Part shown: positions 13,133 to 53,302 of the stretch, piece after piece | How positions within the stretch are numbered: the stretch's first letter is position 1 | Layout of the letters: every line of letters starts with the position of its first letter | Source: Chloranthus sessilifolius | Taxonomy: Eukaryota > Streptophyta > Magnoliopsida > Chloranthales > Chloranthaceae | DNA length: 64,000 nt | NCBI GenBank assembly: GCA_021018995.1 | Contig: CM037586.1 | Span: 5,430,328-5,494,327 of the forward strand | Direction of reading: 5' to 3' | The notes under the pieces: model-generated | Told to the model about the DNA's origin: nothing | What the model saw: only the letters and a program-made list of their open reading frames with translations | The model's database searches: none | Program-made: the position numbers and the translations under genes

Positions 13133-13233
13133 TCAAGGAAAGAATTCCTTCGCTGGGGTCTCAAGCTTCTCCTCAGGGATATAGTCAGAGTCTTCTAGAT
13201 CGAGATCGTCTGAACCTAAATCAGTCCCAACAC
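13133..13233 (-). other. E1 LTR acidic open segment (putative exon)
   Basis: Minus strand, preceded by an AG acceptor in CTATACGTCACAG|GT. It opens in phase G|GT and runs 33 codons to TGA, ending SDYIPEEKLETPAKEFFP. The C-terminus matches those of E2 and the D LTRs, and differences fall mainly at third codon positions. No in-frame ATG was found, so how it would be translated is unknown. Confidence 0.5.
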
Positions 13234-14378
13234 CTGTGACGTATAGTCGAGATGAGCTAACATCGAAGCTCAATAGAGGAAACTTATCTAAATTATATAT
13301 ATTTTTTATCATAAGTAAAAGTTTCCAAAGACGAGAATCGGAGCAAATATGGTTTTCAAAAGATGCAATGATGTCTAAATTCCAATTCTAAAATAGTAAG
13401 CCAAAAGATGATTTAATAGGTCTGATGTTCTGAGGTTTTCAAATTCCGAATTAAGCATGCCTCTTATCTTAAATTTATAACTTAATTATATCTCCCAAAT
13501 TACCTATAGCGTGAGAGCGAGAGTATTATCGATGGGAAACCCTACTAATCATCGTCGTTCAATGAACCCTTTTTCGGAAAGAGCAACAAACCCTTACGTA
13601 ATGAGAGAAACTTACGCTAGGCTGAATTACCGTCAACACGGTTGGCAGAATATAGGGTTTCATTCTTATTAACCTCAAATCGAATGCAAATGTTAAACAT
13701 ATCAGATTTTATGTATATAATACATTTTGGATTTTCAGAGTTCTAATACAAAATTCACATTCGCAATGAGGTTCTGAAGTTCCAAGTTTCTGAGTTCTTA
13801 TTTATATCACAGTTTCGAAGTTCTTATTCATGCTATGTTTAACAAAAGTCAGAATTCATGCTTAGAATAAAATGCAACCAATACTTAGAATAAAATGTAA
13901 ATCAGTTTTAGGGTTCCCCTACCTCGACTCGAATCGGTCAAAAAAACACACCAAGAGGTCCTCACAATGGACTCTTTATCACAAGGCCTACAATGATTGA
14001 CACCACATGTGTTAATAGACATCCAAAAGTTCACACAGAAAAATACCCACAACATTTTCCAAACAATTTCCGAAGATCATAAAACAGAGCCAAATTCGAT
14101 GGTCGAATTTAAATTCGACCCTCGAATTGCCCCAAAAGTGCATCAGGCAAATAGCCTAAATTCGACCCCCGAATTCTAATTCGATGGTCAAACTTCAAAT
14201 TCGAGGTTCGAATTGAAATTCGACCCTCGAATTTCTCCAGGTCTGTGGTGTCCCAGATTTGTTCTTCTGACTTGATTTTTCATTCCAAAGCACTAATTTG
14301 TTTATCTTTTCTAGATGCATCATTTACCTAACTAATCTAGGCATAATTAACTTACTCAAAGAAGTTTAAAGAGCCTAC
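13234..14378 (-). other. E1 LTR putative intron
   Basis: Minus strand, donor AAAG|GTAGGC and acceptor CACAG|GT, with a branch-point-like CTCAT/CTCAC region about 20-25 bases upstream of the acceptor. 1145 nt. It holds the TCGA palindrome group. Inferred from layout shared with the C, D and E2 LTRs. Confidence 0.4.
14094..14236 (-). repeat. E1 array of TTCGA...TCGAA near-palindromes
   Basis: About six copies of TTCGA(T/C)(G/C)(G/T)TCGAA-type units (such as TTCGATGGTCGAA and TTCGACCCTCGAA), about 20-25 bp apart. It is the E1 counterpart of arrays in the C, D and E2 LTRs, with a different core sequence. Confidence 0.75.
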
Positions 14379-19984: not shown

Positions 19985-21658
19985 GTAAATTTCTTGTGAA
20001 TTAAATGCATAAGATATGGGAGGTTAATCGTAGTTAGAATGGTGTAAAATGTAGGGTAAAAAGGCTTAGAAAAAGGAAGAAAATAAATGGAGAAAGATTT
20101 GGAAGAACAGTCAGAAGGGGGAAGAATCTGGAAATTTCGATTAATCGAAATTAGGTTTCGATTAATCGAAATTGGCCAAGAAGTTAAAAAGTCAGAGGAC
20201 CCCGATTTCGATTAATCGAATTGGGTTTCGATTAATCGACTTTAGTTTTTGATTAATCGAATTGGAAATCGATTGATCGACTGGGAACCTACAGTGAACT
20301 CCAGTGGAGGAAAGAAAATAGCTTGGAGAAATCGACTAATCGAAATGGGAATTCGATTAATCGATTTAGAATTTCGATTAATCGATTTGGCATCGATTAA
20401 TCGATTTTGGAAATTCGATTACTCGAATTGAGAATCGACTGATAGAGTGGAGAATTTCGATTAATCGAATTGAGTTTCGATTAATCGAATTGAGTTTCGA
20501 TTAATCGAATGGGAATCTCGATTAATCGATTTGAGAATTGATTAATCGATATTGACTTTCGATTAATCGATTTTGGAAATTGATTAATCGAATTAGATTC
20601 GATTAATCGATTTTGGAGTTCGATTAATCGACTGTGCTAGTTTATGTTGACTTTTGAGTTTGACTTTAAGCTTCATGGAGGGTTTTGGAACTCCTTTATT
20701 GCATCCTTAGTGATGTGTTTCATATGTTATGTGGTACCATAGGTGGTACATGTGAGCTAGTGCATAAGGAGCCACGTGGGACCTTGATGCATTGAACGAA
20801 CGAAGACTTGAGGTAGGGAACACCTTGAACATGTACTTTATTTTACAAGAGCATGTATGTAGTGATATAGAATTCAAATTTAAAATGTTTTATTGTTTAA
20901 GAATTGTGAAAAGTGTGTGTGTGTGTGACATCCATAAGAGTAATTATAATGAGCCATCCCCAGGGGATGGAGAAGTAAAGAGATAAGAGCATCAAGTGTG
21001 ATGCAAGTGAATGGATACATCCCAGGGATGTATCCAAGATTGAATCATGTTTGATAGGGCCTAACTGATATAAGATAGCACACTTACATGGTGAATAACT
21101 ATATGTAAGGCACCGATATTTTTGTTATTTGAGGTTTGATAGGGTACCCCACCGACGTGGCGGGATATCCACGACTGACACGGCAGGATATCCGTGACCG
21201 ATACGGCGGCGAAACCGTAAGCCAGTGCGGAGGCTTATCCGTACATAGTAAGCACACCCCAGGGGTGTTGATTTGAGACAAGTGAAACCCCGCCACCAAT
21301 CCCCAGGGGAGAGGGGCTTGGGTACTATATTGTATTCACAGGGAATACGTTGAAAGTGTCTATATAGATGACGGTGATGGGTATCTCATCGGGGCTCGAT
21401 GCTATATTGCTCGGGGATTACTTAAGTTGAAAGTTTAAGTTTTGCTTTAGGCCTTTTCAGCATCATTCATGAATAAATAAAGGCATAAGTAAACTACCAG
21501 TAAAATGTAATGCTTTTAATTGTTTTCATCATTGACTGCATAGACACATCATGCATGGCATATCATGGAATATATGTGAGTAATAATTTATATGTTCAAC
21601 TGTGTCTTATTCCCTATTGAGCTAGGATGTAGCTCACCCTATAGACTATACGTCGCAG
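19985..21658 (+). other. C LTR putative intron
   Basis: Donor TTAAG|GTAAAT and acceptor TATACGTCGCAG|GT, with a CTCAC branch-point-like motif about 20-25 bases upstream of the AG. 1674 nt. The same exon-intron-exon arrangement, with the same G|GT phase, occurs in the D, E1 and E2 LTRs. An LTR intron would remove the palindrome array from spliced RNA. No transcript evidence is available here. Confidence 0.45.
20137..20632 (+). repeat. Palindrome array 1 (TCGATTAATCGA) in C LTR
   Basis: About 21 units of the perfect 12-bp palindrome TCGATTAATCGA or one/two-base variants, by eye about 14 exact, with AT-rich 6-12 bp spacers. A GACTGGGAACC...CAGTG spacer interrupts it near 20279. Any frame through it yields SINRF/RLIE-type peptides, which are by-products of the repeat and not a gene. 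Confidence 0.9.
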
Positions 21659-21762
21659 GTCCACTACTCGCAGCTGCCGAGGCTTCAGGAGACGCTGACC
21701 ACGGTGAGTCGGACCTTGCGGCCGGAGACGAGTTGGAGCCACCTCCTGAGGACTTCTTCTAG
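21659..21762 (+). other. C LTR acidic open segment (putative exon)
   Basis: After the AG acceptor the frame in phase G|GT is open for 33 codons and ends DELEPPPEDFF before TAG at 21760. It is Asp/Glu-rich. It is the divergent homologue of segments in the D, E1 and E2 LTRs, which end EEFFP or similar. It has no ATG, and the preceding exon is closed in this frame by an immediate TAA. Confidence 0.45.
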
Positions 21763-22121
21763 AGGACTCCGTTGTGCTGCTTTGAGGGCTTTTTGAGAGA
21801 GAATTGTACGGCTTGGTATGTCAAGCCTTGTTTTGGTTAAACCATTTATATATTGAGTTTGGGATTATTCTTTTGGGGGCGAGCCATCCGTGATGATTGC
21901 TATCATCGATGGTTCGGGTCGGCTCTCCAATCATGCAGAGGCATGAGGGTAGAACTGTCTTTTGGAGAATTACTTTAACATAGATTTAAATTCCGCAGTT
22001 CCATTTATTATTTCATTTTATGCTTGATATGCCAATGTTCCGTGTTGAGCTAAGGGGCACGGTCAAGATGATCGTGCTGATGGCACGGGTTTCGGGGTGC
22101 TGAAATCCGGGCTGTCAAAGT

Positions 22122-22139
22122 TGGTATCAAAGCGATTTT
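22122..22139 (+). other. Primer-binding site of element C
   Basis: TGGTATCAAAGCGATTTT, initiator tRNA-Met complement with one change from TGGTATCAGAGC. Confidence 0.75.
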
Positions 22140-28371: not shown

Positions 28372-29316
28372 ATGCCGCCAAAGACTCGGTTGTCTTCGAA
28401 GAAGGCAACCTCTAAGCTCCCGGTTCGGCGTAAGAACGCCGCGCCACCTCCACGTACCCCATCACCGGTGAGGACTCCATCACCGTCGGCATCGGAGACC
28501 ACCTCCAGTTCGACGAGCGCATCCTCGCGCGAGTCTTCCCGCGAATCGACCCCAATGCCCCCACCACCCACTAATGTGGTGCAACCAAATGAATGGTGGG
28601 CGGCCAAGACCTTCGAGGTCGAATACATTATTGACCCAACCCTATTTACAAATCCCGATGTACCGGGCGAGACCCAATGGGCTCGAAACTACCTCAACAA
28701 CGCCGGTCTCGGCAACCTTCTCAAACCAATCCGGGGTTCTTACTACCCTAGATTGGTGAGATTATTCTACCAAGGGCTTGTGGACGGCCCGACCGACGAT
28801 GTGATCAAGACCACCATAGAGGGTCGAGACTACACGATCACACGTCATCACATATTCCCACCCTTCGAGGAAGACCCCCGCTTTGAGGAGGTCATGACCC
28901 GCATGACCAATGGTAAAAAGGGGTCGGGCTCCTCCATAAAGAGGGTTGACCTTCCCCACTATATGTGGATGCTTGACTCGGTGGTCAAGTGCAGTCTATA
29001 CCCGATGCGCCACGGCACTGAGCGAGTGGAAATAGTGCAACAGGCACTTTACTCGGCCTTCTGTGGCCAGTGGTTTGATGCCACCATGCTCATCCTCGAG
29101 GGGATGAGGTATATCAAAGGGAAGCTAATGAAGGGCAACCTCCGGCCCAAGGAGAAGATGCCCTACGCTCGCCTTATATCGAGCATGTTGGAGTGCTACT
29201 CCAACGACCCTTTCTACGCCGTCTCTCCTCATGAAGAGAGGGCTACGGACTACGTGAAGACATTCTCCATGTCTTCATGGACCCGTAGCTACAACACGAC
29301 CAACGAACAATCCTAG
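28372..29316 (+). CDS. Plant-transposon-domain-like protein (314 aa), uninterrupted
   Basis: Residues 1-75 are basic, then Ser/Pro/Thr-rich (MPPKTRLSSKKATSK). Residues 80-290 resemble the putative plant transposon protein domain seen in Athila-type elements, with YPRLVRLFYQGL and a conserved block around WFDATMLILEGM. The protein is distantly similar to the one at 30193-30951, which has YPRLVKLFYSNM and YWFDVPSYLLEVM at equivalent positions. The ORF is GC-richer than its surroundings, lies between a TATA box and an AATAAA, and has no break. The function of this domain is not established. Which element it belongs to is unclear. Confidence 0.6.
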   Translation: MPPKTRLSSKKATSKLPVRRKNAAPPPRTPSPVRTPSPSASETTSSSTSASSRESSRESTPMPPPPTNVVQPNEWWAAKTFEVEYIIDPTLFTNPDVPGETQWARNYLNNAGLGNLLKPIRGSYYPRLVRLFYQGLVDGPTDDVIKTTIEGRDYTITRHHIFPPFEEDPRFEEVMTRMTNGKKGSGSSIKRVDLPHYMWMLDSVVKCSLYPMRHGTERVEIVQQALYSAFCGQWFDATMLILEGMRYIKGKLMKGNLRPKEKMPYARLISSMLECYSNDPFYAVSPHEERATDYVKTFSMSSWTRSYNTTNEQS

Positions 29317-30009: not shown

Positions 30010-32640
30010 ATGAATCTAACAAACAAACGACAGAGGGAAGGAGAAGAAGAACGTAACAGTTCTGATAACATCCCTATTAGTCACCGAATCATACAGGTTG
30101 CTGCCCTCAAATCCAAATAAGAAGCAGCAAACCCCCCTAAGAAGAGGTCCAAATGTTCATGGATAATTATCAGAGAACCCTCTAGAGACACAATGAAGAT
30201 TGACCCTATGTCTGTCCCCAAAAAGGGACCCAAATTAGACAAAGGTAAAAAGCCAGCGTCTTCTGTCATGCCAACTACTAAAATCCCTACTTCAAGGAAA
30301 CAACATATTGTGGGAGCTGAAGTTGCAGTGGACGTTGACGCTTTAGAAAAATTAGAGATGGGAGGAGAGGTCATAAAATATTTTAAGGATGCAGGGCTAC
30401 ATTATTTTCTAGAGCCTGGAGTTACCCAAGTCTACCCTAGACTGGTAAAACTATTTTATTCAAATATGAGTAACAGTAGCAAGGGACCAATCCTAGCACT
30501 GACAACAACCATTGATATATTTCAAATTTCAATTACAAAGGCAATGGCTGCTGGAGTGATGAATGCACCCTTGGAAAGATATGGGCCGACCTCTGGCACT
30601 CCGAAAGCAAATATCCTTAGACCTGCACCGGAGACCCTGCTTGATTTAACCCAAATGGCCACAAATTTGCTAGGCAAACTACCGAGTGACAAATCATTTT
30701 TTCTGCAAAAAGACTTAGAGGACATGAATTTATCCCTTTACTTTTTCGATGTTTTAATTCATAAAACTGTTCACCCTACGGGACATGGGACCCAGCGAAG
30801 AGCTCTCTTTGCAAAAGCCTTACACCTAATGACACATCGCTATTGGTTTGATGTCCCTTCTTATCTTCTAGAAGTAATGAACAAAGTAAGGGAGAAATTA
30901 CCTCTAAAGAAATATCAGACAAGCAATTATATTTATCCTTTGGTGGATTGATTAAAAATCTGCTAGTAAATGTGGGATATAATATTGATCCCAATGAAAA
31001 AACATTGCCTCGTAGTAATGCGAGCTTGACACCTAAGACCTATCGGAAACTCTGAGTGCCGCGAATAAAAAGAGAATCCCTATTTCAGCACAACAGAGGG
31101 AGGTCTTGTCTAACTAGACACCACCCAAGAACCATTAGAGACTGCTATAGACTAGCTAGCAGAAACTAGGGCCACAGTAGAAATCTCTACTATAGGAGAG
31201 GAAATAATAGAAGAAGGGGTGAGGATTCCAACACATGAAAAAGAAGAGAACAACTCTCCAAGGCATGAGGGGGTTGCTGTATCAGAACCCCTAGTTGCTG
31301 AACATCCTATTCTGTATGACCAGACAATGGACTCACCAGTAGGGCCTACTATGCCCCCTTCCACAGAAGCAACTGTATCACAAGATATTCAAAGAATAGA
31401 CCCTGTAAGCCCAATTGTTGAAAGTACGAAAGAAATTCATTCCCTAATTAGTCCACAAGTTACCGGCGTGACTACTTTTAGCCATTTCCCTGTATCAACA
31501 GAACCTATTACTCAGCCTCCAATTCCAGCCAACACAGAACTAACATTAAGAATAGGAGCTGTTGAAGAACTTGACTCCCAATTGCAAAGGGGGAGTTTTA
31601 CAGAATTATTGAATGCAGCAGAAGCAACCCTTGAAAATCCTCCATTCTCCTCAACATCAACACTTGATCTAGAAAGAAGAATAAGGGCGGTGGAGCAATG
31701 GCAAAACAACCATGAATCAATTCTAATGCCACTGCCAGAATTATTCGGAAGGGTGACAAAACTAGAGCAATGGACCTCTACGAATGCGCCACCATTGGTA
31801 CAACTACCGAGCATTGTGAAAAGGTGGATGAGAGAATTCCACAGTCTAATAAAAAGAGTTTACGAAACCACCTTGACAACCCAAGAGAGAGCTGAAATAG
31901 TGGAAAGCTTGCAAAGAAAAGCTATACATGAGCAAGGTGTGAGATGGACAATGGAAACAGAGAAAAAAGTTCAGGAAGCCACTGCAGGCTCCCATGCATA
32001 GATAGTACATCTCCAGTCTCAAATTGAGACATTGCAAGGTAAGCAACAGACATGGGAAGTAGAAAAGAAAGGATATGAAGAACATATAGCCGATTTTATA
32101 GAACCGTTTGGGAAATTGATAGAAGACCTAGACGCAACAGAGAATAAAAGAGAACATGCACACAAAGAATATGAACAAACTCTCAAAATGCTGCTAACTG
32201 AGAAGACTCATGACTTGACAGTAACAGAAGGGAAATTGCATAAATTGCAAGAAGCAAAGGATTCCCTCAGCTTGATATGTAAAGATCAAAAGAAATATAT
32301 TGAGACTCATACGACAAAAAGCTGGGTAGAAATTACTAAAGTGAAAGAAGAATCTGAAAAACTGAGGAAAGAGTTAAAAGACAAAACTGCAGAAAATACT
32401 ACTCTCTTAGCTACTCTGCAGAAGATAGAAACAGAAAGGGACAAACTGCTACTTGAGGTCCAGTTAAAATTTGCGATAATCATCAAGCAACATGCAGATA
32501 TGAAATAAAAAGAAAGAACCACCACTCCTGCCAAGGTGGCTGAGATAGAGGACATACCACAACTTCTAGCCAAAGCATCAGGTTATGCAACAGAGGAATT
32601 GTCTGAATTAGAGGAAGAATGGCCCAGAAGCTAGTCCCCA
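30010..32640 (+). pseudogene. Element B env-like / plant-transposon-domain gene, broken
   Basis: An ATG at 30010 opens a frame with an early stop near 30118, continuing open at 30193-30951 (252 codons) with a plant-transposon-type domain (FLEPGVTQVYPRLVKLFY, YWFDVPSYLLEVM). After a frameshift and stops it is open again at 31219-32001 and 32032-32508. The last parts are Glu/Lys/Gln-rich and probably coiled coil. In Athila elements an ORF between pol and the 3' LTR is traditionally called env-like. I see no convincing transmembrane segment here, so an envelope role is not supported. Confidence 0.65.
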
Positions 32641-35014: not shown

Positions 35015-35631
35015 TGTAAAGACCCGTATTTTGAACCCGAGTTAGACTGACCCTGTGTGTATATTCGGCTCGGCAACCGACGTCATCATTTGTTTTGGAT
35101 TTTTATCTAGATGTGATTGTGCGGACAGATTTTAATTTAGAGCCCATTTGGACCCTCGTGCGAAAGTTGTGCACCGACCTCGGTGTGGCCGCTCAACACC
35201 GGACTTGAGTTTTAAAATTAGAAGTGTATAATACATAAGATGTGTGTGTGTGTTTTACTTTGTGAGCAATCCTATTATAAGAAGGAATTACATTCCCGTA
35301 TTATACTAGGTTTTGTTAAGAGAGGATAGTTACCCAACCGTGTGAAACTTCGTCTTCTCTCTTCTTCAATCATCGTAGGAGATCGGTTTAGAAAACCTCC
35401 TTCTCTAGAACCCTCTTTGTTGAAAATACTTAAACCTTAGAAAGAACTTGAATCAACCTTGGATTCGTAGTTGGCTATTGGGAGAGGTTGAGATCATTTT
35501 GGGCGTGTTGGAGTTGTCTCTGTGAACTCGTGGGATCGATCGCAGCGCGAATCGTTGAGGAAACCCGTCGGTTTCGTTCCGAAGCTCCATTCGCGTGACT
35601 CATTTCTAATCTAGGAATCTTTAGATTAAAG

Positions 35632-37044
35632 GTACGTTTTAATTAAACTTTTTGATTAAATCATTAGATTAGCCATGGGTTTTTCTTTGGGATGTATGGG
35701 TTTCGATTCGGGTGAAAACCAGCGAAATCGCGTCGCTGTAGCTCGCTCGAGCGAGCTATTATCATCGCTCGAGCGAGGTATCACCGAACTCCGACATTGC
35801 CTTAGTATTTTAGTCATAACTTTATATCCCGAACTCCGATTGAGACGATTCTTTTTGCGTTGGAAAGATAATAGAAAAATCTATAACTTTCATATTTTGA
35901 TCAACGCATGGATCAATCGTCTTGATAGTAAAAAATATATGAGAATGTTACATCAAATCGCTCGAGCGAGCTATTATCATCGCTCGAGCGAGGTATTGTC
36001 GAACTTTGACATTGCCTTGGTATTTTAGTCATACCTTTTTGTCTCGAACTCCGATTGAGACGATTCTTTTTGAGTTAGAAAGCTAATAGAAAAATCTACA
36101 ACTTTTATGTTTTGACCAACTCATGGATCAATCATCTTGATAGTAAAAAATATATGAGAATGTTACATCAAATTTTAGGATTGGCGCAACTTGCCTGTTT
36201 TGACTTGTTTTTGAGGAAACGCTTAAATAGGTCTATATTATTAGTAATTAGAGTTAATTTTAATGCATGGACGTATATTGTGATGTAGATTGAGGGCCAG
36301 AGGCCATCAATAGGGCTTTGCTTGACTTCGCATTACTCCGAGTTTTGGTAGGAGAATCTCATCTTTACAGTATTTTATTTTAATTCGCATGGATATTTTG
36401 AATTAAAATCTTTGAACTTGCATATGCCATTGAAATCACATCTGTAAACTGAAATTGATATGGATGACTGAAAATCTAAATCTACCTGAATCCTGAAACC
36501 TGAATCTGCCTAAGCTCTGAAAATCTGAAATCAAGAACATGAACTATGTATAAGAGACTTGCATCTGATTTATATTAGTATCTGCATTTGTTTTATGATT
36601 GACTGACGACCCTCAAAATTTTGAACAATTTCACGGCACAAGTTTCCCTCATTACGCGAGGCTTGTTGCATCTGAAAAAAGGTTCATGAGCAGCGATGGT
36701 AGGTAGGGGTTCCCATCGGCTATATTCACGCTCTCGAGATATAGTTTACTGGGAGATATTTTAAGTTGAGGATTAAGTCATGAATTCTTGAACTTTACAT
36801 ATAGAAGTTAGAGAAACTAAGACCTTTGAAACCTTTGCATACATTTCTTGAAACTGTTTTCACACATTTAGAAATAAATCTTACATATGATTTCTGCACC
36901 TAAATTCAGTTATTATCTGCTTATATGTTTGACAAGCTATATTCCGATATTTGTTTTGAAACTATATTAGTTAAAGTAGAATGCCGTAGATGTCTTTCTT
37001 CTACTGAGCTTTGTTGGTTAGCTCACTCCGACTATACGTCACAG
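35632..37044 (+). other. D LTR1 putative intron
   Basis: 1413 nt between AAAG|GTACGT and CTATACGTCACAG|GT, with CTCAC in branch-point position. The exon upstream has no ATG, as expected for a 5' UTR. The open frame at 35675-36028 (MGFSLGCMGF) lies inside this intron and is not favoured as coding. Confidence 0.45.
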
Positions 37045-37145
37045 GTTCAGGTACTGACGTGGCTATTCAGGGCTGTGAGACTGATCCTGACTACGTGCCT
37101 GAGGAAGAGCTTGAGGTTCCTCCTAAGGAGTTTTTCCCAGTATAG
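37045..37145 (+). other. D LTR1 acidic open segment (putative exon)
   Basis: Phase G|GT, 32 codons to TAG at 37143, ending DYVPEEELEVPPKEFFPV. Homologous segments are at 13133-13233 (E1), 51371-51465 (E2) and 21659-21762 (C). LTR2 (about 42565-42667) and LTR3 (about 50070-50174) keep the C-terminus but carry indels at CTG/CAG sites upstream. Against E1, 10 of 15 differences in the last 17 codons are at third positions. Confidence 0.5.
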
Positions 37146-37257
37146 AACTTACTAATTTTCTTATTTGTGGTGAGAGTTAGACTTGAATTTGTGGGCCCAT
37201 TTTAGTTGGATATTATAGTTTTATACTTGATGTTGATTTCTGTTATGAGCCATGTTT

Positions 37258-37279
37258 CGATGATGGTCGGCCATCATCG
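37258..37279 (+). other. Conserved LTR hairpin (D LTR1)
   Basis: CGATGATGG, loop TCGG, CCATCATCG: a perfect 9-bp stem. The same stem occurs in LTR2 and, with one mismatch, in LTR3. It is followed by TGGTTCTTT, also shared with the E LTRs. Confidence 0.7.
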
Positions 37280-37443
37280 GTGGTTCTTTACTTTTAATTG
37301 CTTCCGCATTTATTTTAGCTATGGATTTTTATTACGCTTTACTCTGATATCTGCCCTGTTTGTCCGGCTTATCATTTATTCGATAGGTTGGAGAACCGGC
37401 CTTTCCTATACCTGAGGAATTGGAAAAGTCGGGTCATCACAGT

Positions 37444-39624: not shown

Positions 39625-40674
39625 TTAATGGATTGAGAAATTCATCTCGCTAGCAGTAGGGGATTCCCTCTGCTGTTGGGTATATATCTCATGAGGAATC
39701 TGTTGTTCAGAAACTTGGATTCCTTCCAGATTGGGTTGATTAAATTCAGAAGGAACAAATGAGTTAGCTTCTGAATAAGCTGATCGAGCAGTCGAGGGTA
39801 TAGAAACTCTATAAGGACCTCGAGACCTCGAATCAGAATAAGAACTTCTATAAGAAGTTCTGTGGGATGTTGATCTATCAAATTTTAAGATTACATCACC
39901 CTGGATATTTTGAACAATTTGTTCAATCTCTTGGTTTAAAATTGGTTTAGGTGAGACAGCTTGAGGTATACGCCAAACATCAGGAAAAGTAATATTTTTC
40001 CATTCACATAGTTTTTGTGTAGCAACATTAGTGGTTGCACTATTAGTCTCAATTAAGACTGTTCTTCCTGGTTCATTTTGATAATTAATTTTAGGAATCA
40101 GAGAAGTCATCACCTTATAATGAAGGCGATAGATCAGAGCAATGGTCTCTGATCCAGGCATAAAGTTGTATCCCTCAGTTTGGAGATGAAGGGTACAAGC
40201 ATGAAAAATATTTTTATCTGTTAAAGATAAAGTTAAATTTGGGAAAATATTGTAGTATACTGGACCAAGGCATAAGCTGGTCTCAATAGCGGCCATCAGA
40301 GAGGATCGCCAATCAAGGCATCTAGCATCTCTGAGAGTACTAAGTATACTAGTATTTTCAAGACCCAATAAGGTCAAAGGTTTGAATGCAACTTGAATGC
40401 ATCCTAAATGAAGAAATTTGAAACGATGAAGGTCATGTAAAAGATCTTCGTTGGAAAGTAATTGAAAACCTTCATTTATACTGAGAGTTTGCTCAGTAGT
40501 TTTGATCGACATGTCGGTGGACCAATCTTTCCATCCATATTGATAGATTATTTTAGGATTGATGGAAGGTATTGTCCATCGGTTTAATTGATTTTGTTGG
40601 TCATCAATTTGAGACCATTTATCTAATTGCTTATTTTTGATTAATTTTTTGGAGGAAAAATTAAAAAGAGACAT
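39625..40674 (-). CDS. Movement protein of endogenous pararetrovirus, open frame of 349 codons
   Basis: Uninterrupted from ATG at 40674 to TAA at 39625. The central part (residues about 90-215) has the 30K-superfamily movement-protein pattern, including a conserved Asp in the TLRDARCLDW segment, the LGPVYYNIFPNL segment and a following SLTD. The C-terminus (about 270-349) is Ser/Arg/Tyr-rich and probably disordered. This family enlarges plasmodesmata to let virus pass between cells. An intact frame is notable in an endogenous copy. Expression is not implied. Confidence 0.75.
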   Translation of the reverse strand: MSLFNFSSKKLIKNKQLDKWSQIDDQQNQLNRWTIPSINPKIIYQYGWKDWSTDMSIKTTEQTLSINEGFQLLSNEDLLHDLHRFKFLHLGCIQVAFKPLTLLGLENTSILSTLRDARCLDWRSSLMAAIETSLCLGPVYYNIFPNLTLSLTDKNIFHACTLHLQTEGYNFMPGSETIALIYRLHYKVMTSLIPKINYQNEPGRTVLIETNSATTNVATQKLCEWKNITFPDVWRIPQAVSPKPILNQEIEQIVQNIQGDVILKFDRSTSHRTSYRSSYSDSRSRGPYRVSIPSTARSAYSEANSFVPSEFNQPNLEGIQVSEQQIPHEIYTQQQRESPTASEMNFSIH

Positions 40675-40759: not shown

Positions 40760-42953
40760 TGTAAAGACCCGTATTTTGAACCCGAGTTAGACTGACCCTG
40801 TGTGTGTATTCGGCTCGGCAACCGACGTCACCATTTGTTTTAGATTTTTATCTAGATTTGATTGTGCGGACAGATTTTAATTTAGAGCCCATTTGGACCC
40901 TCGTGCGAAAGTTGTGCACCGACCTCGGTGTAGCCGCTCAACACCGGACTTGAGTTTTAAAATTAGAAGTGTATAATACATAAGATGTGTGTGTGTGTTT
41001 TACTTTGTGAGCAATCCTATTATTAGAAGGAATTGCATTCCCGTATTATACTAGGTTTTGTTAAGAGAGGATAGTTATCCAACCGTGTGAAACTCCGTCT
41101 TCTCTCTTCTTTAATCATCGTAGGAGATCGGTTTAGAAAACCTCCTTCTCTAGAACCCTCTTTATTGAAAACACTTAAACCTTAGAAAGAACTTGAATCA
41201 ACCTTGGATTCGTAGTTGGCTATTGGGAGAGGTTGAGATCATTGGGGGCGTGTTGGAGTTGTCTCTGTGAACTCGTGGGATCGATCGCGGCGCAATCGTT
41301 GAGGAAACCCGTCGATTTCGTTCCGAAGCTCCATTCGCGTGACTCATTTCTAATCTAGGAATCCTTAGATTAAAGGTACGTTTTAATTAAACTTTTTGAT
41401 TAAATCATTAGATTAGCCATGGGTTTTTCTTTGGGATGTATGGGTTTCGATTCGGGTGAAAACCGGCGAAATTGCGTCGTTGTAGCTCGCTCGAGCGAGC
41501 TATTATCATCGCTCGAGCGAGGTATCACTGAACTCCGACATTGCCTTAGTATTTTAATCATAATGTTTTATCCCGAACTCCGATTGAGACGATTCTTTTT
41601 GCGTTGGAAAGCTAATAGAAATATCTACAACTTTCATGTTTTGACCAACTCATGGATCAATCGTCTTGATGGTCAAAAATATATGAGAATGTTACGTCAA
41701 ATTCTAGGATTGGCGCAACTTGCCTGTTTTGACTTGTTTTTGAGGAAACACTTAAATAGGTCTATATTATTAGTAATTAGAGTTAATTTTAATGCATGGA
41801 CGTATATTGTGATGTAGATTGAGGGCGAGAGGCCATCAATAGGGCTTTGCTTGACTTCGCATTACTCCGAGTTTTGGTAGGAGAATCTCATCTTTACAGT
41901 ATTTTATTTTAATTCGCATGGATATTTTGAATTAAAATCTTTAAACTTGCATATGCCATTGAAATCACATCTCAGAAGAAATTGATATGAATGACCTGAA
42001 AATCTAAATCTACCGAATCACAAACTGAATCTACTTAAGCTCTGAAAATCTGAAATCAAGAACCTGAACTATGTATAAGAGACTTGCATCTGATTTATAT
42101 TAGTATCTGCATTTGTTTTATGATTGACCTGAACGACCCCTCAAAAATTCTTGAATAATTTCCTGGCACAGGTTTCCCTCATTATGCAGGGGCTTGTTGC
42201 ATCCTGAAAAAGGGTTCATGAACGACGATGGTAGGTAGGGGTTCCCATCGGCTATATTCCTGCTCTCGAGATATAGTTTACTCGGGAGGTATTTTAAGTT
42301 GAGGATTAAGTCATGAATTACTGAACTTTGCATATAGAAGTTAGAGAAATTAAGACACTGAAATACTGCATCTGTTCTTGAAACTGTTTTTACACATTTA
42401 GAAATAAATCTTACATATGACTTTCGCACATAAATTCAGTTTATTATCTGCTTATATGTTTGACAAGCTATATTCCGATATTTGTTTTGAAACCATGTTA
42501 GTTAAAGTAAAATGCCGTAGATATCTTTCTTCTACTGAGCTTTGTTGGTTAGCTCACTCCCGACTATATCCGTATTCGAGTATTGGCGTGGCTATTCGTG
42601 TGAGATCGATCGACTACGTGCCTGAGGAAGAGCTTGAGGTTCCTCCTGAGGAGTTTTTCCCAGTATAGAACTTACTGATTTTCTTATTTGTGGTGAGAGT
42701 TAGACTTGAATTTGTGGGCCCATTTTAGTTGGATATCATAGTTTTATAGTTGACGATGATTTTTGTTATGAGTCATGTTTCGATGATGGTCGGCCATCAT
42801 CGGTGGTTCTTTACTTTTAATTGCTTCCGCATTTTTTTTAGCTATGGATATTTATTGCGCTTTACTCTGATATGTGCCCTGTCCTTATCGTTTATTCGAT
42901 AGGTTGGTGAACGGCCTTTCCTATACGAGGATTGGAAAAGTCGGGTTGTCACA
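40760..42953 (+). repeat. D LTR2 (middle LTR, short form)
   Basis: 2194 bp, about 220-230 bp shorter than LTR1 and LTR3 because it has only one GCTCGAGCGAGC palindrome block (near 41484). The viral sequence ends exactly where it begins. It is followed by a tRNA-Met primer-binding site at 42956, so it serves as the 5' LTR of D2. Confidence 0.9.
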
Positions 42954-43282: not shown

Positions 43283-43942
43283 ATGGCACCACGCAAGAGA
43301 TTGAAGACTGTATGCATCGATGAAAATGAGCAGAATAGACAGTTGCTGGAGACGATGATCAACACAATGGCTCAGCAGACAACATTACTCACGACAATAT
43401 TGAGTAAGACGACTCACACCTCTCCCTCCACACAGGTTGAGTCATGCTCAAGTTGTGGGAAACAGCACAGGACGAAGAAATGTAGGTGGGCCACAGGTGA
43501 GTGTTTCAGATGTGGCAAACTAGGACATCTGATAAAGGATTGCCCTACGATAGAAACAAAGAAGGCCACACCCGTATCTCAACAACCTACTCAAGGTGCC
43601 TATCCAAAACCGACTATATCTACACCTTTAGGGTCATTCTGTATTTCGAACCCTGCCATAACGGGAGCGTTCAGAGTTCCACAAACTTCACGCACCTCTT
43701 CATTCAATCCGATAGCATTCTGCTCAAGGTGCGGGAAATCACACAAGACCGAGGATTGTAGGAGGAACACTGGAGCGTGTTTTCGGTGTGGTGAAATCGG
43801 ACACATGGTTAAGGATTGTCCTCAGAGGATAAGGGAAGAACTAGTTCGGCTTCTACTCAGAGATCGACCCGACCTACTGTTCAAGGTCGAGCTTATGCCG
43901 TGATGGCTCAAGAAGTCGAAACATCGAACGACGTGATCCAAG
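43283..43942 (+). pseudogene. D2 gag: capsid-less, two double zinc-knuckle modules
   Basis: Starts MAPRKRLKTVCIDENEQ. Residues 1-50 match the usual N-terminus, the capsid domain is missing, then come four CCHC-type knuckles in two modules. These are CSSCGKQHRTKKC with CFRCGKLGHLIKDC, then CSRCGKSHKTEDC with CFRCGEIGHMVKDC. A one-base loss at a CAG near 43825 shifts the frame after the fourth knuckle. All cysteines and histidines are present. The same capsid loss in D1 shows it predates both copies. Confidence 0.8.
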
Positions 43943-48060: not shown

Positions 48061-50470
48061 TGTAAAGACCCGTATTTTGAACCCGAGTTAGACTGACCCT
48101 GTGTGTGTATTCGTTTCGGCAACCGACGTCACCATTTGTTTTGGATTTTTATCTAGATGTGATTGTGCGGACAGATTTTAATTTAGAGCCCATTTGGACC
48201 CTCGTGCGAAAGTTGTGCACCGACCTCGGTGTGGCCGCTCAACACCGGACTTGAGTTTTAAAATTAGAAGTGTATAATACATAAGATGTGTGTGTGTGTT
48301 TTACTTTGTGAGCAATCCTATTATAAGAAGGAATTGCATTCCCGTATTATACTAGGTTTTGTTAAGAGAGGATAGTTATCCAACCGTGTGAAACTCCGTC
48401 TTCTCTCTTCTTCAATCATCGTAGGAGATCGGTTTAGAAAACCTCCTTCTCTAGAACCCTCTTTGTTGAAAACACTTAAACCTTAGAAAGAACTTGAATC
48501 AACCTTGGATTCGTAGTTGGCTATTGGGAGAGGTTGAGATCATTGGGGGCGTGTTGGAGTTGTCTCTGTGAACTCGTGGGATCGATCGCAGCGCGAATCA
48601 TTGAGGAAACCCGTCGGTTTCGTTTCGAAGCTCCATTCGCGCGACTCATTTCTAATCTAGGAATCCTTAGATTAAAGGTACGTTTTAATTAAACTTTTTG
48701 ATTAAATCATTAGATTAGCCATGGGTTTTGCTTTGGGATGTATGGGTTTCGATTCGGGTGAAAACCAGCGAAATCGCGTTGCTGTAGCTCGCTCGAGCGA
48801 GCTATTATCATCGCTCGAGCGAGGTATCATCGAACTCCGACATTGCCTTAGTATTTTAGTCATAACTTTATATCCTGAACTCCGATTGAGACGATTCTTT
48901 TTGCGTTGGAAAGCTAATAGAAAAATCTACAACTTTCATGTTTTGACCAACTCATGAATCAATCATCTTGATGGTAAAAAATATATGAAAATGTTACATC
49001 AAATCGCTCGAGCGAGCTATTATCATCGCTCGAGCGAGGTATTGTCGAACTTCGATATTGCCTTGGTATTTTAGTCATAACTTTTTGTCCCAAACTCCGA
49101 TTAAGACGATTATTTTTGTGTTGGAAAACTAGTAGAAAAATCTACAACTTTTATGTTTTGACCAACTCATGGATCAATCGTCTTGATAGTAAAAAATATA
49201 TGAGAATGTTACGTCAAATTTTAGGATTGGCGCAACTTGCCTGTTTTGACTTGTTTTTGAGGAAATGCTTAAATAGGTCTATATTATTAGTAATTAGAGT
49301 TTATCTTAATGCATGAACGTATATTATGATGTAGATTGAGGGCGAGAAGCCATCAATAGGACCTTGCTTGACTTCGCATAACTCCGAGTTTTAGGTAGGA
49401 GAATCGCATCTTTACAGTATTCTATTTTAATTTGCATGGATATTTTGAATTAAAATTTTTGAACTTGCATATGCCATTGAAATCACATCTGTAAACTGAA
49501 ATTGATATGGATGACTGAAAATCTAAATCTACCTGAATCCACGAAACACGAATCTTAAGCTCAAATCAAATCAAGAACGAACTATGTATAAGAGACTTGC
49601 ATCGATTTATATTAGTATCTGCATTTGTTTTATGATTGACACGAAACGACCCTCAAAATTTCGAACAATTTTACGCACAAGTTTCCCTCATTACGCAGGG
49701 CTTGTTGCATCTGAAAAAGGGTTCATGAGCGACAATGGTAGGTAGGGGTTCCCATCGGCTATATTCACGCTCTCGAGATATAGTTTACTGGAGGTATTTT
49801 AAGTTGAGGATTAAGTCATGAATTCTTGAACTTTGCATATAGAAGTTAGAGAAACTAAGACACCAAACACCTTGCATACATTCTTGGCTTGTTTTCACAT
49901 TTAGAAATAAATCTTACATATGATTTCTGCACCTAAATTCAGTTATTATCTGCTTATATGTTTGACAAGCTATATTCCGATATTTGTTTTGAAACTATAT
50001 TAGTTAAAGTAGAATGCCGTAGATATCTTTCTTCTACTGAGCTTTGTTGGTTAGCTCACTCCGACTATCGTCCGCGAGTTCGAATGCGCGTGGCTATTCG
50101 GTAATGTGAGGCCGATCGACTACGTGCCTGAGGAAGAGCTTGAGGTTCCTCCTGAGGAGTTTTTCCCAGTATAGAACTTACTGATTTTCTTATTTGTGGT
50201 GAGAGTTAGACTTGAATTTGTGGGCCCATTTAAGTTGGATATCATAGTTTTATACTTGACGTTGATTTCTGTTATGAGCTATGTTTCGATGATAGTCGGC
50301 CATCATCGGTGGTTCTTTACTTTTAATTGCTTCCGCATTTATTTTAGCTATGGATTTTTATTACCCTTTACTCTGATATGTGCCCTGTTTGTCCAGCTTA
50401 TCGTTTATTCGATAGGTTGGAGAACCGGCCTTTCCTATACCTGAGGGATTGGAAAAGTCGGGTCGTCACA
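48061..50470 (+). repeat. D LTR3 (3' LTR, long form)
   Basis: 2410 bp, with two palindrome blocks (48786 and 49004) as in LTR1. It ends GGTCGTCACA, followed by CACCG, the second copy of the target-site duplication. The open frame at 48721-48957 is the LTR3 copy of the intron-located frame in LTR1. Confidence 0.9.
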
Positions 50471-51021: not shown

Positions 51022-51370
51022 TGTGACGACCCGACTTTTCCAATCTCTAAGGTATAGGAAAGGCCGGTTTATCAACTTATTGATTTCTCAATAAGCCGTA
51101 ACAAACAGAAGCCGACAATATATACAAAGATCTAAAGACAGAGGCAACATATAGTAATCCAAAAATAAAAGCTTCATATAACAAAATTAAATATATCACT
51201 GTGAGGAACCAAAAAGAGCCACCGGTGATGGCCAATCCGATCACCTAAAATAGTGGTTCATAATAATGGTTCCTCGAGTGATATCAAAAGAACCAAAATA
51301 ATAGCCTAGGGCTCAATATTCCAAAATAATATCCAGACAAAAATACCAAAAAAAAATACAGGATCTAAGA

Positions 51371-51465
51371 TCACGGAAAGAACTCCTCAGCTGGTAAGTC
51401 TGATTCCTCCTCGGGAATATAATCGGAGTCCTCCAGATCCTCTGACCCAAGGTCAGTCTCAGCAC
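51371..51465 (-). other. E2 LTR acidic open segment (putative exon)
   Basis: Minus strand, acceptor CACAG|GT, phase G|GT, open to TGA at 51373-51371, ending DYIPEEESDLPAEEFFP. Compared with E1, 10 of 16 differences in the last 17 codons are at third positions and only two at second positions. Confidence 0.5.
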
Positions 51466-52704
51466 CTGTGATGTATAGTCGAGGGTGAGCTAACAGCCAA
51501 GCCCAATAGAGGAAATAGATCTATTTGCATTTCTTTATAAGTAAAGGTTTTCAAAAGACAGAATCAGATCAAATATGATTTTTTAAATGATGCTTTCCAA
51601 AGTAAATCTCCAGTTCTTATCCTGAGTCAAAATTGATAATATAATCTAATGTGTTCGAAAATGTTCTGATTTAGCATGCTTCTTGTCTTAAATTTATAAC
51701 TTAATTTTATCTCCAAAATTTCCTATAGCATGAGAGCGGACTATATGATCGATGAGAAAACCCTACTGACCATCATCGTTCATGAACCCATTTCGAAAGT
51801 GCAACAAACCCCTACGCTATGAGGGAAACTTGCGCCAAAGTAATACCGTCAACACGATTGGTAAAATCTAGGGCATCGTCCGTATGAACCCTAAATCAAA
51901 TGCAAATGCTAACACATATCAAGCTTGTTATTCATAACATAATTCTAATTTTTCAAAGTTCTGATTCAAAGATTATCTGAGGTTCGAATTACAAAGTTCT
52001 TATTTATAACAAAGTTTCCAAATTTTCAGATTGGTGTCATATATTCAGAGTTTTATTCATGCTGTGTGCAACAGAATTTCCAAAATTTATCCTTCTTAAT
52101 TGAAATAGTCAAACAATCTATACTTATAATTTAATGCAAATTAAATACAAGGTTTCCCTACCTTAACAAGGAAGTTTCAAAAACATGCATAAGCAGTCCT
52201 CACCAAGGACTCCCAACAGTCAAAACCTATATATATTAACACTCTCAGTGTTAATATAGAACCCAAAAATCAAACCAAAAGCTTGCAGATAAAAAATCCA
52301 ACAAAATTTTCAAATGCCTGAAACAGGATAGAATTCGACCATCGAATTTCAAAACTGCACATCAGTCACAAAACATAGAAAATCGACCCTCGATTTTCAA
52401 TTCGATGGTCGATTTCCAAATTCGACCATCAAATTGGAAATCGACCATCGATTTCCAAAAATTGGCTTCAGGCTCAGAAACACATTTCGACTGTCGATTT
52501 TCAAATAGATGGTCGAATTCCAAATTCGACCATCGAATTGAAAATTGACCATCGAATTACTCAGGTTCAGTGGCTGTCAAAATTTTCAAGTCCGAACTTT
52601 TTTCTTCATTTTCAACCACAACCTTCCTATCCAAAAATAAACACCATTCACTATTCTAAATTAAAAATTGAATTCAAAAGATAAAAGGATGTTTAAAGGC
52701 CTAC
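51466..52704 (-). other. E2 LTR putative intron
   Basis: Minus strand, donor AAGAG|GTAGGC, acceptor CATCACAG|GT, 1239 nt, containing the E2 palindrome array. Same phase and order as in the C, D and E1 LTRs. Confidence 0.4.
52330..52560 (-). repeat. E2 array of TCGACCATCGA-type palindromes
   Basis: About nine units such as TTCGACCATCGAA, TCGACCCTCGA and TCGATGGTCGA, separated by about 10-25 bp. They have the same TCGA-NN(N)-TCGA plan as in the other LTR families. Confidence 0.75.
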
Positions 52705-53302
52705 CTCTTGTAGTTTAAGCCGTTACCTCCGTTGTACCAAAGCACGCACCGGAACCAATCTTCGAAGTTCAACGGCTTAAATCTTCAAAACAGTCCATTA
52801 TAAACCTTCCTCCACTACACAGATCCTTATCAACACAGTGACACTCTCTTCTTTATCTTTCTCTTTCACTAGCTCAAACCGATCAGATTTTAAGCACAAG
52901 GCTAATTAATGGTTGAGATGGGGAGAGGAGCTCTCAAGCTTTCGAGATCTAGGATCAAAATGAGGCAATGCCTTAGAGCTTAAATTTTCAACGAGAGAGA
53001 GAGGTTAAACTTCTCTTTCACTCTCTCTTATAACCCAAAAGCCAAGTAAAATAATATCTAGATTTTTATAAATGTAACTTATCCACTTAAGTTGAAAACA
53101 TATCCAGTGTTAAACACAAACACCAACCCTATTGTGTAAGTCATTGCTTACATGATTTGTACACCCATTGACAATACCATTTTATCATCATTCTCATCAA
53201 ACACAAAGCTAACCAAAAGTCCAACAAAACTCGTAAAAATTTCCGGACACGCTTACCGAGGTAAACGAAATTAGGCCAAAATATCAGGGATATTACATAT
53301 GA

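Follow-up and report, generated by a model that had tools for sequence, protein, structure and literature searches.

A candidate two-exon gene for an acidic microprotein within LTRs of Ty3/gypsy retrotransposons of Chloranthus sessilifolius

Results

LTR elements of the window

The locus described here is a 64-kb stretch of DNA (the window) of the 2.17-Gb Chloranthus sessilifolius assembly, and is densely filled with LTR elements. Element D is a tandem array with the order LTR-internal-LTR-internal-LTR, and its LTRs lie at 35015-37441, 40760-42953, and 48061-50470; the first of these (D LTR1) starts with TGT and ends with ACA, followed by a primer-binding-site-like sequence. E2 is a solo LTR that sits within a copia copy, and the E1 LTR is related to it (71% identity over approximately 1500 columns). 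The 5′ LTR of element C ends near 22124. The D and E LTRs have few short blocks of DNA in common. The initial annotation reported that C, D, E1, and E2 each contain an open segment encoding an acidic peptide after a conserved AG|GT, and the coordinates and peptides given for all four check out on translation. All four segments are within LTRs, and we refer to them below as exon 2 of a proposed gene.

35015..37441, + strand: D LTR1, with the whole proposed gene inside; pairs with 48061-50470 at 94.5%
51022..53297, - strand: E2 solo LTR, with the whole proposed gene by itself; 5-bp duplication TATGA in its flanks
21659..21762, + strand: C proposed exon 2, acidic peptide ...GDELEPPPEDFF (...DELEPPPEDFF) and stop; from translation and triplet signal
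37045..37145, + strand: D LTR1 proposed exon 2, acidic peptide ...DPDYVPEEELEVPPKEFFPV (tail ...DYVPEEELEVPPKEFFPV), with the stop at 37143-37145
13133..13233, - strand: E1 proposed exon 2, acidic peptide ...DYIPEEKLETPAKEFFP and stop; from translation and codon comparison
51371..51465, - strand: E2 proposed exon 2, acidic peptide ...DYIPEEESDLPAEEFFP and stop; from translation and codon comparison
42226..42666, + strand: D middle LTR, a decayed copy with the exon-1 motif at about 42226, the last 17 codons present, and the acceptor region scrambled

Pfam domain scans covered the C pol and the D ORFs other than the D RT ORF. In the C pol, RVT_1 and Integrase_H2C2 score above the cut-off, and rve and Chromo below it (Chromo 24.0 bits, cut-off 25.1); in D, Chromo is above the cut-off at 31.4 bits and RNase H is also present. 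As far as scanned, C and D are thus chromodomain Ty3/gypsy elements, and they may belong to the Tekay/Del group, a candidate placement that combines the label of the initial annotation with the presence of the chromodomain. The D gag ORF (43283-43903, + strand) has two zinc knuckles and no capsid domain in Pfam, so that the D copy in the window may be nonautonomous.

Several other ORFs lie in or near these elements. Antisense inside the D array (39625-40674, - strand) is a 349-amino acid ORF in which Pfam finds the domain of viral movement proteins (MP, E 1.2e-11); we think that this ORF is a fragment of an endogenous plant pararetrovirus. Between pol and the 3′ LTR lies an ORF in sense orientation (28372-29316, + strand) with weak similarity to Transposase_32, below the Pfam cut-off, and a similar ORF is found in C and E elements at L067, L069, L071, and L063; three C copies have their own TATA and a conserved donor-like GTAAACCCTAGA in the leader ahead of it. 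Further ORFs at 30193-32508 (+ strand) apparently belong to another element, and one of them has very weak Transposase_32 similarity (E 0.2).

The acidic segment evolves as a protein-coding sequence

The suggestion that the segment is under amino acid selection came from counts of differences over the last 17 codons, and these are exact: D and E1 differ at 4, 1, and 10 sites at codon positions 1, 2, and 3, and E1 and E2 at 4, 2, and 10. Over the full stretch after AG|GT the corresponding counts are 11, 7, and 21 for D and E1, and 5, 4, and 17 for E1 and E2. As judged by eye, the similarity between D and E at the segment reaches the stop codon and ends there. The other two D LTRs of the window retain the last 17 codons, with the acceptor scrambled; in both (42552-42666 and 50053-50170) approximately 50 nt are scrambled exactly around the acceptor, even though the D LTRs are otherwise 90-97% alike in aligned blocks. 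Rearrangement, descent from an old subfamily, or assembly error may each account for this.

The segment is abundant in the genome. The motif leading into it, AGCTCAN{2,7}GACTATACRTCRCAGGTS, has 12,387 genome matches (6301 + 6086) and its reversed control has none; a codon-degenerate pattern for DY[VIM]PEEE[LF][DE] has 2738 (1391 + 1347), its control again has none, and several synonymous spellings are present among the matches listed. The leading motif excludes the peptide, and from the matches listed for it we cut 30 loci in listing order from contig 1 (L031-L060; 23 C and 7 E copies). The peptide frame is open over 29 codons in 27 of the 30, compared with 6 and 3 for the other two frames, and 25 of the 30 have the normal length and an FF, FFP, or FFL end, among them L041 and L042, which are altered inside. 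A further 20 loci (L081-L100) were picked from the same listing for unusual motif variants, and by our own count the peptide is unbroken in 13 of them. Two of these loci represent additional LTR families with a related tail, L085 (QPKEFFSLV) and L086 (IPPDEFYP, with one internal stop), so that the initial count of four families was too low. The D loci L001-L030 were found through similarity to the segment itself, and their intactness is not independent evidence.

Comparison of C subfamilies (14 of the 24 C copies, in six groups) gives mismatches of 0.21, 0.21, and 0.48 at codon positions 1, 2, and 3 of exon 2. When all windows and phases from -1090 to +470 of the C LTR are compared, exon 2 has the top triplet signal (t 4.99). 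The next nonoverlapping window, at -514..-454 (21145-21205 in the window), has a weaker signal (t 2.78) that shares the phase of the peptide; 3 of 12 copies have stops there. Transversions alone, counted in 11 of the 24 C copies (L033, L045, and L059, which are in the mismatch set, were left out), give 0.036, 0.037, and 0.199 at the three positions, compared with 0.105 for the remaining LTR stretch. Among 20 chosen copies, pS exceeds pN in all 19 pairs compared (pS 0.37-0.88; pN 0.04-0.33), and raw amino acid changes outnumber silent changes in 7 of the 19. The best comparison is that of E2 and L055, with 14 silent and 3 amino acid changes on 19 and 74 sites, respectively, and a silent divergence of 0.74.

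One pattern is less simple to fit: variation at third positions exceeds the background of the LTR, and positions 1 and 2, with all changes counted, are close to that background. Mosaic exchange between LTRs is one possible reason. Over the 400 nt ahead of exon 2, L055 and L060 share 94-96% identity; within exon 2 they share 78-79%. More generally, the E LTRs L055, L047, and L060 look mosaic, with stretches of 97-100% identity beside stretches of 63-80%, which suggests exchange between LTR lineages. The initial claim of amino acid selection is borne out in many more copies, with silent change exceeding amino acid change per site in all 19 pairs, and the pattern that had been named as speaking against it, a dN/dS near 1 with common stops, was looked for and not seen. 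By these comparisons, the segment after AG|GT is protein-coding and under purifying selection.

A conserved boundary at AG|GT

Among the windows listed, the 60 nt ahead of AG|GT have the lowest mismatch (0.06) and no triplet bias; the bias begins at AG|GT. This change from conserved, unbiased sequence to triplet bias could resemble a 3′ splice site. AG|GT is part of the search motif, and the conservation of the acceptor in L031-L060 and L081-L100 is therefore not independent. The AG|GT boundary drawn initially is backed by many more copies than those first compared. Translation of unspliced RNA through the acceptor is disfavored by the lack of triplet bias in the upstream 60 nt, by a TGA 13 codons upstream in D and most E copies, and by the lack of a common start codon.

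In C, D, and E, a conserved inverted repeat, TGAGCT(A)...(T)AGCTCA, precedes the acceptor by approximately 20 nt (36995-37040 in D and 21618-21640 in C). A second hairpin-like block, GAGCCAT...ATGGTTC, lies about 110 nt after the stop in C and D (37248-37290 and 21881-21925), with a similar block seen by eye in E.

An upstream start codon and donor in phase with the acceptor

In all four window LTRs an ATG lies approximately 280-350 nt upstream, followed by a GT donor whose phase matches that of the AG|GT acceptor. The start motif is ATGNNNN|GT in three of the four; in C it is ATG(N10)|GT or ATGN|GT. It had been noted at the outset that no ATG is in frame with the segment and that the partner exon was not known. 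There is indeed no shared start codon without splicing, and the upstream ATG with its phase-matched donor now provides a candidate. The proposed parts are as follows, with the sites placed by conservation and phase.

36696..36702, + strand: D LTR1 proposed exon 1 coding part, ATG GTA G| (M-V-G..); conservation and phase
36703..37044, + strand: D LTR1 proposed intron GTAGGG...TCACAG, 342 nt; conservation, phase, and composition
21368..21380, + strand: C proposed exon 1 coding part, with in-frame ATGs at 21368 and 21377 (MTVMG.. or MG..)
21381..21658, + strand: C proposed intron GTATCT...TCGCAG, 278 nt; conservation and phase
13546..13552, - strand: E1 proposed exon 1 coding part, ATG ATT A|; conservation and phase
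13234..13545, - strand: E1 proposed intron GTAGGG...TCACAG, 312 nt; conservation, phase, and composition
51767..51773, - strand: E2 (solo LTR) proposed exon 1 coding part, ATG GTC A|; conservation and phase
51466..51766, - strand: E2 proposed intron GTAGGG...TCACAG, 301 nt; conservation, phase, and composition

When joined in silico, all four window LTRs give complete microproteins of 33-38 amino acids, predicted to be MVGSGTDVAIQGCETDPDYVPEEELEVPPKEFFPV (D), MISVGTDLGSDDLDLEDSDYIPEEKLETPAKEFFP (E1), MVSAETDLGSEDLEDSDYIPEEESDLPAEEFFP (E2), and MTVMGPLLAAAEASGDADHGESDLAAGDELEPPPEDFF or the MG.. form (C). In unspliced RNA of the window copies the same ATG would be kept and, as judged by eye, a stop follows after approximately 8-22 codons in a different frame.

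To avoid picking this pair by eye, we enumerated every upstream ATG/GT pair with an open frame and a phase fitting the acceptor; the distinct column pairs number 184 in C, 98 in E, and 94 in D. The ATG-7 nt-GT pair is kept in 21 of 24 C copies (the best of all pairs), 8 of 9 E copies (tied best), and 29 of 30 D copies, and is the sole pair at a matching place, judged from alignments, in the 12-best lists of C, E, and D. A competing ATG-13 nt-GT pair, with its ATG 10 nt upstream and its donor 4 nt earlier, is kept in all 30 D copies and 8 of 9 E copies and is absent from the C list; in D, a pair that joins this ATG to a donor 6 nt farther along is kept in 29 of 30. A donor-like AG|GTAGGG lies further upstream in C and E; reading in phase 1 puts a stop codon just before it in C and E2 (by eye), and we discounted it. 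In C copies elsewhere the codon after the ATG varies (ATG, AAG, GAG, GTG, AAT, GCG), while the ATG and G|GTA are constant; in the C copy of the window the family ATG position, 21374, reads GTG. ATGN4GTA is present at -380..-200 in 27 of the 30 listing-order loci (absent from L034, L050, and L056), and the exon-1 motif is absent from 6 of the 20 further loci (L081, L085, L086, L087, L090, and L100).

Base composition changes in steps at the predicted splice sites, as in plant introns: mean GC in 16 chosen copies is 0.45 in the 150 nt before the donor, 0.34 in the intron, 0.53 in exon 2, and 0.37 downstream, and in D LTR1 the proposed intron and exon 2 have 0.34 and 0.50. In most of the copies listed, position -3 of the ATG is a purine; in D LTR1 the context is GCAGCG, with a purine at -3 and G at +4. 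The four window LTRs have TATA-like matches, noted without a chance control, at 147-355 nt before the ATG. The ATG is within a conserved inverted repeat, CGATGG..CCATCG, that spans the start codon and donor, and the conservation of this repeat could by itself hold the ATG in place. Predicted RNA folds of the inverted repeats around the donor and the acceptor are no better than those of shuffled sequences (z -0.4 to -1.2), and a structured RNA at these two repeats was set aside.

A genome pattern search for intronless copies with the predicted junction gave no matches for C, D, or E. DNA copies of the spliced RNA of BARE could likewise not be amplified (PMC3735527), and the zero count is thus neither for nor against splicing. 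A first D junction pattern had one match, by eye a copy with a 6-bp deletion, and that pattern is blind to the junction proposed later.

Searches for relatives

In viral contigs, the exact DNA motif and the C pol protein each had no matches. The protein collection had none for one D and one C frame. Pfam searches with six peptides and a PDB search with the E1 peptide returned nothing at E 10. Given how short the peptide is, these negatives are weak evidence, as they are, we think, for collections poor in plants.

Discussion

The coding selection on exon 2, the conserved ATG, donor, phase, and acceptor, and the steps in base composition are features of the DNA itself, and the reading that best joins them is a two-exon gene within the LTR, with an acidic microprotein made from spliced RNA and most likely acting in trans. 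We put the probability of this at roughly two in three. RNA would start in the LTR, upstream of the gene. Exon 1 would close with the start codon plus a few coding bases, usually ATGNNNN, at the conserved GT donor; an intron of approximately 275-345 nt ending in CRCAG would be removed; and exon 2 would supply the acidic stretch ending in ...P[AP]x[ED]FF(P), followed by the stop. The product would be an acidic microprotein of approximately 33-38 amino acids, obtainable only from the spliced RNA, and splicing would separate coding RNA from genomic RNA. We infer the splicing, the translation, and the RNA start site; the host partner and the role of the microprotein are a guess, in which a short linear motif would dock on a host factor in trans. 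Action in trans seems most likely because nearly every residue is held between E2 and L055, where silent sites are near saturation.

The same two exons could instead act in cis, as a conserved-peptide uORF in the leader of the spliced RNA, with the C-terminus stalling or gating ribosomes and setting Gag output. The location fits, in that the segment in the C LTR precedes the primer-binding site and gag, the latter by approximately 450-600 nt as judged by eye, as do the purine at -3 of the ATG in most copies listed, the nearly constant length in intact copies (33-38 residues including exon 1), and the C-terminus beside the stop being the best conserved part between families. However, only 3 amino acid changes over the whole peptide between E2 and L055, at a silent divergence of 0.74, is more constraint than a stalling tail needs, and the D element of the window retains the peptide though its gag ORF has only zinc knuckles in Pfam. 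We regard this alternative as the main rival, though less likely. Exon 2 might also belong to a larger protein as its C-terminal exon, with the splice running from the internal region to the acceptor in the 3′ LTR and the extra ORF after pol as one possible partner. C and E have a sense ORF there, with its weak Transposase_32 similarity below the Pfam cut-off, and no comparable triplet signal appears in a second window of the scanned LTR stretch, yet in three C copies, by eye, this ORF has its own TATA and GTAAAC donor-like leader and ends before an AT-rich stretch. The D element of the window lacks such an ORF yet retains the peptide, and the ATG-donor pair in the LTR already supplies a complete frame; we therefore set this ORF low as a partner exon, and the larger-protein reading is improbable.

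Two other readings have less to recommend them. The peptide could bind the MLLE domain of poly(A)-binding protein as a PAM2-like ligand, a Paip2-like modulator of translation. The PAM2 consensus is LNxxAxEFxP (PMC7356810) and an acidic segment accompanies the motif in Paip1/2 (PMC4574140); LDIPAEEFFP and LETPAKEFFP fit five of the six fixed positions in 7 of 9 E copies, and E2 and L044 fit four. The asparagine is in none of the copies shown, however, where the residue is mostly D or E (K in some C copies), and proline takes the place of the alanine in D, L085, L086, and nearly all C copies, a bulkier residue being unfavorable according to the structure paper. With D fitting four positions and C, whose peptide ends at FF, only two, the peptides as a set do not belong to this motif class, and we consider the reading very improbable. 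The acidic FF motif likened to FFAT was also considered, and the peptides do not conform to it. Finally, the segment could be untranslated, in which case mutation or gene conversion would have produced the triplet pattern by accident and the upstream motif would function in the promoter or in packaging. The strong conservation of the 60 nt before AG|GT (0.06) with no triplet bias, the third positions above background, and the mosaic appearance of the LTRs (L055 and L060) are compatible with this, but the triplet signal is present in transversions alone and in separate families and ceases at the stop codon, and of the 30 loci 27 have the peptide frame open, compared with 6 and 3 for the other two frames. 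We give this reading almost no credence.

Complex retroviruses encode accessory proteins in their LTRs, for example MMTV Sag, and the candidate gene is similar to Sag in that the protein is encoded inside the LTR and reached via splicing. It differs in being an acidic microprotein of approximately 33-38 amino acids in plant Ty3/gypsy elements, with the start codon and both predicted exons in one LTR, and we claim no sequence relation. Plant conserved-peptide uORFs are short ORFs upstream of a main ORF, with a conserved C-terminus; in contrast, the frame described here is in a retrotransposon leader, is created by predicted splicing, and is constrained over its whole length in the best E comparison.

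In the open PMC literature, surveyed through titles and the starts of abstracts and with subscription papers outside its scope, we found no description of an LTR-contained spliced microprotein. Long additional ORFs (aORFs) and spliced RNAs of plant elements are described in several papers (PMC11728184, PMC7730604, PMC6317226, PMC3735527). Plant Ty3/gypsy aORFs, including 5′ aORFs of Tekay, are conserved and of unknown function according to one of these (PMC11728184), and like the candidate gene they extend the coding capacity of plant chromoviruses beyond gag-pol. The sunflower Tekay aORF given there is 400 amino acids and the minimum length setting of the ORF search was 300, whereas the microprotein is in the LTR, is split by a predicted intron, and is too short for a search with that setting to see. 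BARE makes a spliced, Gag-only subgenomic RNA, for which the authors argued a functional intron from the contrast in GC between exon and intron (PMC3735527), and Ogre transcripts are partly spliced (PMC6317226). In these elements, as proposed here, splicing of part of the transcripts alters what is translated; their introns are within or between gag-pol coding regions, whereas the intron predicted here is contained in the LTR and would create a new small ORF.

A broader proposal is that the LTR itself is the gene, with several chromovirus LTR families of this plant containing a self-contained two-exon gene for a trans-acting acidic microprotein; we offer this tentatively, at somewhat less than even odds. 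If it is true, a regulatory protein could come from solo LTRs and full elements alike, with a logic like that of retroviral accessory proteins. LTRs are commonly viewed as promoter and terminator DNA, and a coding exon pair would add a protein to this very abundant class of plant DNA. ORF scans would miss such a gene because the frame exists only after splicing. Solo LTRs or LTR promoters near host genes may then bring a small acidic protein along, and the arrangement would provide a handle on how elements might separate translated from packaged RNA.
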